Source: Algibacter pectinivorans (GTDB lineage Bacteria > Bacteroidota > Bacteroidia > Flavobacteriales > Flavobacteriaceae). Taken from it: a stretch of 64,000 nt of DNA. The position numbers were made by a program, and so were the translations under genes. The DNA lies in NCBI RefSeq assembly GCF_900112595.1, contig NZ_FOMI01000001.1, positions 310,001 to 374,000 of the forward strand. The letters are read 5' to 3'. The notes under the pieces were generated by a model. That model saw nothing but the letters and a program-made list of their open reading frames with translations. It was not told where the DNA came from and did no database searches. Below are positions 8,813-58,446 of this stretch, one piece after another (positions within the stretch are counted from its first letter, which is position 1; every line of letters starts with the position of its first letter).

Positions 8813-8924
8813 GGGCGTTACCACACCCTTCGTCTGCGCTCAGGGCAAGCGGTCGGGCTTTCCACTGCAAGTCCTCGCACTTCCTCCGTCAGGCTGTGGG
8901 CTTTCCATTTCAATCCCTAACGCA
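8813..8924 (+). repeat. Dispersed inverted-end element, copy A
   Basis: It begins GGGCGTTACC and ends AATCCCTAACGCA, with GCGTTA/TAACGC as terminal inverted repeats. Inside are GGTCGGGCTTTCC, AAGTCCTCGCACTTCC and a second GGGCTTTCC. It has about 20 extra bases after the first arm compared with copies E and F. It lies between two convergent genes. Confidence 0.8.
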
Positions 8925-22426: not shown

Positions 22427-22506
22427 GGGCGCATCCCAAGGGTCGGGCTTTCACTACTCGCACCTCCTACGTCGGGCGCTCAAACATGCCGTTCAATCCC
22501 TTGCGC
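22427..22506 (+). repeat. Dispersed inverted-end element, copy B
   Basis: It begins GGGCGCATCCCAAGGGTCGGGCTTTC and ends CAATCCCTTGCGC. The ends pair as GCGCA/TGCGC, a different but still complementary version of GCGTTA/TAACGC. The interior is shorter than in copies A, E and F (CTCGCACCTCCTACGTCGGGC retained). It lies between dnaE and trxA. Confidence 0.7.
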
Positions 22507-28988: not shown

Positions 28989-29035
28989 CGCCCTTATTAA
29001 TAACCGAGGTCGAGAACCTCAAATAATTAATTATT

Positions 29036-35483: not shown

Positions 35484-35525
35484 TTATTGACTTTACTTAA
35501 AGGTATAACTTTAGCAAATACGCCC

Positions 35526-35613
35526 GCGTTAGGGATTGCAGCGGCATCCTTTTTTTGCTGCCATAAATGGCAAAAAAAGATATAGGGGAAAGCCCGACCC
35601 TTGTGGTAACGCC
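35526..35613 (-). repeat. Dispersed inverted-end element, copy C (hairpin variant)
   Basis: On the minus strand it begins GGCGTTACC, has AAGGGTCGGGCTTTCC, and ends AATCCCTAACGC, with GCGTTA/TAACGC ends. The interior differs from copies A, E and F: a hairpin of TTTTTTTGCCAT against ATGGCAGCAAAAAAA. It lies between convergent genes. Confidence 0.78.
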
Positions 35614-42666: not shown

Positions 42667-42895
42667 AGTGTATTAAGGATTTCTTGTTAGTATATAATTT
42701 TTGGTAAAAGTAGAGAATTTATTGGAACAAAAACGGCTACTTTAAATTCCTATATTATTGTTTGGTAAATATTTTACATTTTACCGCCTTGTTAATTTTA
42801 ATTGAAAAGGCTAAGGTTGATACTAAGGGAATTTCTTAATATTATAGAAATATACCTGAACCATTATATCTTTATCTTTGAACTTAGCAAATAAG

Positions 42896-42985
42896 TGCGT
42901 GAGGGATTGAAGCGGTATCCTTTTTTTGCTGCCACAAATGGCAAAAAAAGATTTAGCGTATAGCCCGACCCTTGGGGCACGCCCA
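42896..42985 (-). repeat. Dispersed inverted-end element, copy D (hairpin variant)
   Basis: On the minus strand it begins GGGCGTGCCCCAAGGGTCGGGCT and ends CAATCCCTCACGCA. The ends pair as GCGTG/CACGC, complementary but different from the GCGTTA copies. The interior hairpin (TTTTTTTGCCA against TGGCAGCAAAAAAA) is shared with copy C. It ends 11 nt before the downstream glycosyltransferase ATG. Confidence 0.8.
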
Positions 42986-42996
42986 TATAATTAGTT

Positions 42997-44049
42997 ATGA
43001 AAAAACGTATTTTAGTTGCGCCTTTAAATTGGGGTCTTGGGCATGCCACACGTTGCATTCCTATAATTAACGCCTTAATTAGTGCGGGTTTTGCGCCTAT
43101 AATTGCTAGCGATGGTGTGGCTTTATCGCTGTTGCGGAAGGAGTTTCCGAGTATTCCTACCATAGAGTTACCATCGTACAATGTAACATACTCTAAAAAC
43201 GGAAAACTTTTTAAGCTGAAATTACTTAAGGATTCGCCTAGACTTTTAAAAGCAATTAAGGCTGAAAAAAAAGCGATTAAGGCTATTGTTGAAAACAATG
43301 ATATTTACGGGATAATTTCGGATAATAGATTAGGGGTTAGACATAAAAATGTGCCGTCGGTTTTTATAACCCACCAACTGAATGTATTGAGTGGCAATAC
43401 GACTTGGTTGAGCACAAAAATGCACCAGAAAATTATAAAAAAGTTTGATGTTTGTTGGGTACCCGATGCTGCAGGCACTTTAAATTTGAGTGGTAAATTA
43501 GGGCATATTGATGCGTTTGATGTGCCTATAAAATATTTGGGACCGCTAAGTAGATTTACGAAAACGGACCCAGAAATTAAAAATGATATTTTGGTTTTAT
43601 TATCGGGCCCCGAACCACAGCGCACCTTGCTTGAAGAAAAATTACTTAACGAATTTGAGAACTTTACCGGTAAAGTGGTTTTTGTAAAAGGTGTGATGGA
43701 GCCAGAACAAAGCATACAGCTTTTGGACAACTTGACTATTTATAACTTTATGACCTCTAAATTATTAGAAAAGACCATAAATGAAAGTGCTTTGGTGGTA
43801 TCTAGATCGGGTTACACTACGGTAATGGATTTAGCTAAACTGAATAAGAAGGCTTTTTTTATACCTACACCAGGGCAGTTTGAGCAGGTATATTTAGCAA
43901 ACAGACTTAGCGAGATGCATTTGGTACCAACCTGCTCTCAAGATGACTTTACATTAGATAAATTGAATAACAACGGGAAGTATCTGGGCTTAACGGCTTT
44001 TGATTTTGATACGGATTATGCCGACTTGTTTTCGGTATTTAATAGCTAA
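42997..44049 (+). CDS. Glycosyltransferase, MurG/UGT-like (GT-B fold)
   Basis: The 350-residue protein starts MKKRILVAPLNWGLGHATRC, the glycine-rich acceptor-domain start of GT-B enzymes, and has a C-terminal donor half with VVSRSGYTTVMDLAKLNKKAFFIPTPGQFEQVYLANRL (the GxxE/Q-like nucleotide-sugar site). It is a conserved hypothetical glycosyltransferase in Bacteroidota. Donor and acceptor are unknown. There are no membrane helices. A dispersed repeat covers most of its 5' leader, an unusual context for translation initiation. Confidence 0.8.
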   Translation: MKKRILVAPLNWGLGHATRCIPIINALISAGFAPIIASDGVALSLLRKEFPSIPTIELPSYNVTYSKNGKLFKLKLLKDSPRLLKAIKAEKKAIKAIVENNDIYGIISDNRLGVRHKNVPSVFITHQLNVLSGNTTWLSTKMHQKIIKKFDVCWVPDAAGTLNLSGKLGHIDAFDVPIKYLGPLSRFTKTDPEIKNDILVLLSGPEPQRTLLEEKLLNEFENFTGKVVFVKGVMEPEQSIQLLDNLTIYNFMTSKLLEKTINESALVVSRSGYTTVMDLAKLNKKAFFIPTPGQFEQVYLANRLSEMHLVPTCSQDDFTLDKLNNNGKYLGLTAFDFDTDYADLFSVFNS

Positions 44050-46349: not shown

Positions 46350-46379
46350 AAGGCGTTGCTTAAAACAGCGCTTTTTTTG
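46350..46379 (+). terminator. Terminator of the T9SS-domain gene
   Basis: AGGCGTTG and CAGCGCTT pair with wobbles around CTTAAAA and are followed by TTTTTT, 23 nt after the stop. Confidence 0.75.
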
Positions 46380-46388
46380 TTCTGTTTT

Positions 46389-46478
46389 GGGCGTTACCCT
46401 ATAGGGTCGGGCTTTACAATACAAGTCCTCGCACTTCCTTCGTCAGGCTGTGGGCTTTCCTTTTCAATCCCTAACGCA
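46389..46478 (+). repeat. Dispersed inverted-end element, copy E
   Basis: It begins GGGCGTTACCCTATAGGGTC and ends CAATCCCTAACGCA, with ends GCGTTA/TAACGC. The interior (CAAGTCCTCGCACTTCCTTC, then GTCAGGCTGTGGGCTTTCC) is nearly that of copy A. It follows the terminator of the T9SS-domain gene. Confidence 0.82.
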
Positions 46479-58357: not shown

Positions 58358-58446
58358 GGGCGTTTCCCAAGGGGTCGGGCTTTGCGTTGCAAGTCCTCGC
58401 ACCTCCTACGTCGGGCTGTGGGCTTTCCACTGCAATCCCTAACGCA
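58358..58446 (+). repeat. Dispersed inverted-end element, copy F
   Basis: It begins GGGCGTTTCCCAAGGGGTCG and ends CAATCCCTAACGCA, with ends GCGTT/AACGC. The interior (AAGTCCTCGCACCTCC, then GTCGGGCTGTGGGCTTTCC) matches copies A and E. Confidence 0.82.

Follow-up and report, generated by a model that had tools for sequence, protein, structure and literature searches.

Six dispersed elements in this stretch of Algibacter pectinivorans DNA raise the question of what keeps their ends complementary. The stretch analysed as a whole, 64,000 nucleotides, is called the window. The six lie where the sequence-only reading had placed them, and their printed sequences pair as it had claimed: GCGTTA with TAACGC in elements A, C and E, GCGTT with AACGC in F, GCGCA with TGCGC in B, and GCGTG with CACGC in D. 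Two details need correction: A has AAGCGGTCGGGCT instead of GGGTCGGGCT, and the GGGCG start ascribed to all six fails for C, which starts with TTGGCG. The placement of all six outside genes agrees with the ORF listing, provided that the 144-aa ORF around D (42864-43298, minus strand), which itself overlaps a glycosyltransferase gene, is taken as spurious.

Judged by sequence and covariance-model matches, the six elements are copies of a known family of structured repeats, Flavo-1 (Rfam RF01705). On the Flavo-1 strand, which for A, C, D and F is opposite to the one on which the elements were first described, they can fold into a three-way junction in which a basal helix, P1, encloses two further helices, P2 and P3. 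The "terminal inverted repeats" of the sequence-only reading do pair, but they are P1 of this junction, and P2 and P3 had been overlooked. P2 has the form GGG-A-TT ... AA-G-CCC and carries a distal hairpin; its base is NNG/CNN, followed by TT/AA or TA/TA and then the hairpin. P3 is GACC..GG. The core P2 hairpin and its internal loops are common to Rfam Flavo-1 and the elements here. The Rfam model covers neither P1 nor P3, which most copies listed here add; many also have another P2 interior and score under the Rfam cut-off. The family is known, and the long form with P1 and P3 is new.

Flavo-1 was listed for Bacteroidetes as a probable RNA that is probably not a cis-regulator (Weinberg et al. 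2010, PMC2864571), and Rfam types it as Gene; sRNA. The passages on Flavo-1 that were read give no function for it, and no account of the P1/P3 extension or of conservation in place was seen in the main texts searched. Among the listed accounts of flavobacterial dispersed or palindromic repeats, including passages of PMC12306157 and PMC6006769, nothing was seen that matches these elements.

The gathering score of RF01705 is 42 bits, which C (55.4 bits at 35509-35603) and D (55.1 bits at 42882-42974) exceed. A (29.0 bits) and F (31 bits) fall below it, and B and E have no Rfam Flavo-1 match at E <= 1. These four join the family through R1, a covariance model made from 30 copies of this genome, with C and D included and A, B, E and F excluded. 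A covariance model had been proposed as a check on the six, and R1 recovers all of them, with E-values from 2.7e-6 (B) to 1.7e-18 (E). The features in the window are as follows.

8815..8923, minus strand: element A, Flavo-1 long form (P1-P2-P3-P1'); R1 79.7 bits, E 2.7e-15, outside the training set; between convergent genes, BaxI-like (plus strand) and a 158-aa gene (minus strand) that has no match in Pfam.
8827..8844, no strand assigned: palindromic hairpin CCTTCGTCTGCGCTCAGG, an addition to the P3 tip of A, found by pattern search.
22429..22506, minus strand: element B, with a divergent interior and P1 GCGCAA/ATGCGC; R1 39.1 bits, E 2.7e-6, outside the training set; between a DNA polymerase III alpha gene and a thioredoxin gene, both on the minus strand.
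35526..35612, plus strand: element C, with the canonical T-rich P2 hairpin and convergent flanking genes; R1 91.9 bits, in the training set.
42897..42982, plus strand: element D, P1 GCGTGA/GCACGC; R1 81.2 bits, in the training set.
46391..46477, minus strand: element E; R1 94.2 bits, E 1.7e-18, outside the training set.
58360..58445, minus strand: element F; R1 91.1 bits, outside the training set; between saccharopine dehydrogenase-like and AsnC-like regulator genes, both on the plus strand, and antisense to both.

The family is abundant. R1 has at least 122 matches at E <= 0.01 in this genome (150 of 914 candidates scored) and at least 139 in the close relative G004, and both counts are lower bounds because 150 candidates were scored per genome. 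The Rfam model finds 77 matches at E <= 1 in this genome, 24 of them over the cut-off. That loose threshold also gives matches in 5 of 14 control genomes, none over the cut-off. At least one Flavo-1 over the cut-off is present in 31 of 60 genomes, our own included, versus none of the 14 controls.

The case for structure rests on covariation, because single-copy folds are not unusually stable: folded singly, on either strand and with DNA energies, the six have z-scores from -2.02 to 1.10. The proposal that the ends are preserved in folded form is supported: end pairing covaries genome-wide above both shuffled and swapped controls. The 25 copies with a 5' end other than GCGTTA have 124 Watson-Crick pairs among their 150 end pairs, a number that none of 5,000 arm swaps reached (110 at most). 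When only a downstream anchor was used to place the 3' arm of P1, 47 of 70 copies pair at five or six of the six positions, and in 16 of the remaining 23 the arm is misplaced because the anchor lies inside an inserted hairpin. Among these 70 copies, position 4 of P1 is T-A in 41, C-G in 12, G-C in one and A-T in one, and position 5 is T-A in 43, A-T in six and G-C in four.

P2 gives a similar picture. The 76 frames counted come from the 77 Flavo-1 matches, with copy A in the window left out, and their cores were chosen without using pairing; 695 of 760 cells are Watson-Crick. Eight of the ten P2 pairs lie above each of the 1,000 shuffles; the remaining two are almost invariant, in part because their letters are fixed by the search pattern. 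The two variable base pairs of P2, tallied in a frame chosen by pairing, are GG/CC in 53 copies, AG/CT in seven, GC/GC in six, CC/GG in two, CT/AG in two and GT/AC in one, with 5 of 76 unpaired or misread. On the Flavo-1 strand the P2 mismatches comprise 25 G.U, 4 A.C and 36 others, and this excess of G.U over A.C points to the Flavo-1 strand as the one that folds. The excess is absent at fixed sites: A, F and B together have one G.U and three A.C (one of those three comes from misreading a frame), and D has two G.U and no A.C; related copies are not independent.

Covariation is also visible in alignments. Alignment A2 consists of 30 of 40 frames, the 40 having been kept from the 76 for a short P3 and parseable arms; 89.9% of its cells are paired, compared with 76.3% after shuffling, and in 15 pairs both sides have changed. 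The count of further pair types is not raised in A2, as 225 of 500 shuffles reach it. Ten frames were left out, eight with a broken, poorly paired or insert-misread 3' arm and two with a different interior. The P1 counts in A2 (at pair 4, T-A 20, C-G 8, two gaps and no mixed pairs) therefore lean to pairing because frames with bad 3' arms were dropped, a lean that the 76-copy P2 count and the anchor-located P1 test avoid. In loci of other species, 93.8% of cells are paired versus 77.1% when shuffled, and 19 matches from such loci have a covariation score of 0.389 versus 0.146, both in alignments fitted to the model.

The elements occupy sites that are common to species at roughly 71-89% DNA identity, rather than being freshly scattered. 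At A, B and F, orientation and junction recur in congeners and the tips differ. In the species with a readable frame, G004 left out, the 25 junction positions at site A have a mean identity of 0.97, versus 0.58 in the 50-nt outer flank (seven species); at site B the flank has 0.81 and the junction 0.94, and at site F the flank (0.87) is nearly as conserved as the junction (0.91). P1 at site B is GCGCAA in all six frames read, out of ten species. At site D, our own sequence and 29 of 80 loci yielded nine orthologous frames, in which P1 pairs 1-5 are paired in 45 of 45 cells (44 Watson-Crick, one G.U) and the P1 type is GCGTGA in six, GCGTTA in two and GCGCGA in one; such site-frame comparisons lean to pairing because the best-pairing frame was picked. 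Which type of P1 a copy has depends largely on its site.

Occupancy varies between lineages. Of 80 site-D loci in other genomes, 8 have an R1 element, which stops 11-14 nt short of the gene; four further loci (L086, L088, L091 and L094), read by eye and unscored, keep the three-arm fold with other sequences, and many others have none. In the window, D sits between the directly read, promoter-like box TATCTTTG and the start codon of the glycosyltransferase gene at 42997-44049. Site E holds an R1 element only in our genome, L084 and L095, the region being compact in most others listed, and it looks like a lineage-specific gain. At site C the interiors differ between our genome, L084 and L097, and L095 is empty. 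By reading, A is absent in G001, F in G009 and B in G002. The copies at A, F, B and C are thus dispensable in G001, G009, G002 and L095, respectively.

The tips turn over even between close relatives. Most of the interior of F is unlike its counterpart in G004, and the extra P3 hairpin of A is missing from the orthologous site there (L165). Four of our copies (L027, L271, L269 and L278) carry hairpin modules absent in G004 among 17 orthologous pairs, which are those with an orthologue among the fetched loci from the best 30 of 139 G004 copies; these pairs set no direction, gain or loss, because the best scorers lack inserts by selection. The palindrome CTGCCTNCCNGCAGG occurs at 29 distinct places in this genome (40 strand matches), 18 of them in, or at most 60 nt from, a listed element. 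The other eleven were read by eye: ten are in altered or truncated elements or at a solitary 3' end, six of these ten being supported by R1 at E <= 0.1, and one lies outside elements. Two positions account for most places of CTGCCTNCCNGCAGG, one in the 3' arm of P1 and one on the 3' side of P2, a pattern suggestive of movement from copy to copy and not of general insertion. CTTCGNCTNCGCTCAGG, a second palindrome, is present at nine places; by reading, seven of these are in elements. At one locus of this genome (L355, C12:126500-126850) there is a solitary element 3' end (GGTAAC, palindrome, GCGCCC) with the rest of the element missing.

Because sites, orientation and junction recur and tips differ, we suggest that constraint in place is combined with exchange between copies. 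Based on these results, we favor, with a probability of about 0.6, the explanation that the elements are long-form Flavo-1 copies whose junction is held by selection at each site, whose tips are exchanged and whose folded strand acts in place. More than 100 model matches are present in each of the two genomes counted, and most placed copies are intergenic. Selection would maintain the junction site by site, and gene conversion or a similar copying process would move tips between copies. With less certainty, each element would act where it lies as a folded strand; our guess is that this strand is probably RNA, which seems likelier than single-stranded DNA. New sites would arise rarely, apparently not through the Y1/RAYT transposases sampled. 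A broader generalization is tentative and we would not yet bet on it: more than 100 three-way-junction elements, each paired at its own site, might evolve their tips by exchange and gain of nested palindromes, independently of known REP transposases, with a strand-specific folded form working at each site. Our results recast Flavo-1, published in 2010 as a probable RNA, as an abundant repeat with a junction kept per site and tips that turn over. They extend its structure by two helices, argue against a RAYT explanation and provide concrete loci for functional work, for example site D upstream of a glycosyltransferase gene.

The most serious competitor, possible although we consider it rather unlikely, is that these are structure-dependent mobile DNAs moved by some other factor, and that old sites stay conserved through gene conversion by active copies and not through a local function. 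The likeness of common junction sequences could be maintained by gene conversion alone, with no selection acting. Copy number, mixed orientation, the restricted distribution of the site E element and the nested palindromes in the tips are all consistent with mobility, and 28 of the 29 places of CTGCCTNCCNGCAGG are in or at an element or remnant (ten by eye). However, homogenization should erase P1 types that deviate from the consensus, yet at B and D such types are retained across species; in addition, neither a target duplication nor a clean empty junction was seen. MITEs have one terminal sequence that a transposase recognizes, together with target duplications; in our elements the ends vary but covary, and no duplications were seen at insertion junctions that were placed approximately. 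BOX, ERIC and similar structured repeats, which are modular, intergenic and foldable, resemble our elements by description.

Templated correction of quasi-palindromes during replication could make the arms complementary without any selection for structure, and it would give two-sided changes without one-sided intermediates, as at P1 pair 4 in A2. We regard this as improbable. The P1 arms lie approximately 60-150 nt apart, G.U intermediates are present in P2, and the conservation of place is left unexplained.

The sequence-only reading had favored non-autonomous DNA of the REP/RAYT kind, in which folded ends guide a Y1 transposase (TnpA-REP) and the element is copied through single-stranded DNA. 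REP/RAYT systems, with subclass 2.6 in Bacteroidetes, resemble our elements in having many intergenic structured copies per genome, and the conserved structure would fit. They differ from what we see: here there is a three-way junction, copies stay in place between species and no transposase is convincingly bracketed. This explanation is not supported and is, in our judgment, slightly less probable still than templated correction. As had been noted, there is no transposase in the window, at least of the Y1 type, the two PF01797 matches of the genome lying elsewhere. One (L076:2619-6464, on C17) comprises residues 639-744 of an Eco57I-like restriction-modification methylase beside an Abi_2 gene. 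The other (L077:3173-4741, on C12) is N-terminal to coproporphyrinogen III oxidase (Pfam Coprogen_oxidas, residues 227-521); long frames like it, with a Y1 match, are also present in G001, G008 and G009.

A Y1 gene flanked by the same ends had been proposed as something to look for, and no convincing case was found in this genome or in the stretches sampled from relatives; the sample, 42 Y1 stretches in all, is not exhaustive, and some stretches are cut by contig ends. Elements occur in only four Y1 stretches: L076, L326 (2.4 kb from the Y1 gene), L335 (outside the own repeats of that RAYT) and, weakly, L346 (18.1 bits, E 0.078). The nearest case to bracketing is L076, where the Y1-domain gene has a strong R1 match 144 bp upstream and, some 1.2 kb past its end and beyond the Abi_2 gene, a weak second match (22 bits, E 0.017); this is not convincing bracketing. 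Five genomes carry 13-32 Flavo-1 matches with no PF01797 match (G005, G007, G012, G014 and G026; completeness is 92% for G005 and 80% for G012). Two of nine congeners are among them, G005 with 25 and G007 with 32 Flavo-1 matches, neither having a PF01797 match at E <= 0.001.

RAYT-like genes in the sample (L335:763-1448, L318, L342 and L343), with motifs such as NHVH/NHLH and YVNNNP/YIHQNP, carry inverted repeats of their own, such as CGCTACCGC.. and CCAGCTAGCGCGGATT.., which are unlike our elements as judged by eye and by the absence of R1 or Rfam matches there. These repeats are candidates for the atypical repeats of RAYT subclass 2.6, which is reported, in the accessible part of PMC6006769, to have such repeats and to lack the GT[AG]G foot. 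In the aligned copies that we read there is no 5' GT[AG]G foot at the hairpin base, P1 beginning with GC. Replication-strand bias is likewise not seen: the G-rich strand carries 37 versus 28 of the 65 copies with usable skew (p 0.32), and heterogeneity per contig has p 0.25 over nine contigs, with skew taken from sampled fragments. The Y1 stretches also contain matches to Acido-Lenti-1 RNA, at L035:1944-1988 (35.5 bits, cut-off 37) and L321:2028-2073 (39.4 bits).

Integron attC sites were also considered. Their ends follow the order RYYYAAC ... GTTRRRY. By reading, GTT-bearing copies of our elements have GTT at the start and AAC at the end whichever strand is taken, which is the wrong order, and attC was rejected.

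Among 94 copies in Flavo-1 orientation, which are part of all copies, 85 could be placed relative to genes: where the two neighbors are co-directional, 32 copies run antisense and 18 sense to them, and 19 lie between convergent and 16 between divergent genes. Five others are inside short ORFs and four at edges. This mixed orientation argues against a simple UTR role. In Flavobacterium psychrophilum, Flavo-1 matches are described as indistinctly sense or antisense, with many outside transcribed regions (PMC9723704). Together with the mixed orientation, these transcript data from the literature weigh most against a plain role as RNA. Dedicated promoters were not apparent: TAnnTTTG is found in the 75 nt upstream of 8 of 70 copies versus downstream of 4 of 70. 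In 22 of 70 copies P1 has a TTAGC-like box upstream, at a distance of at most 30 nt, compared with 5 of 70 for a control stretch.

The elements lie close to stop codons, at a median of 18 nt where the stop faces the 3' end of the element (32 antisense copies), a tendency that may amount to no more than promoter avoidance. If the elements were ordinary intrinsic terminators or hairpins of 3' UTRs, this closeness would be accounted for, but that is the least credible explanation, given that no run of U was read after the fold, whichever the orientation, that 16 of 85 copies lie between divergent genes and that element E, antisense to both of its plus-strand neighbors, is directly downstream of a separate terminator-like hairpin (identified by eye). 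Both arms of that hairpin (window 46350-46385), read with orthologues, change between species with pairing kept. Lastly, the window contains an S16-Flavobacteria ribosomal protein leader at 28996-29031 (Rfam RF03138, 59.2 bits).
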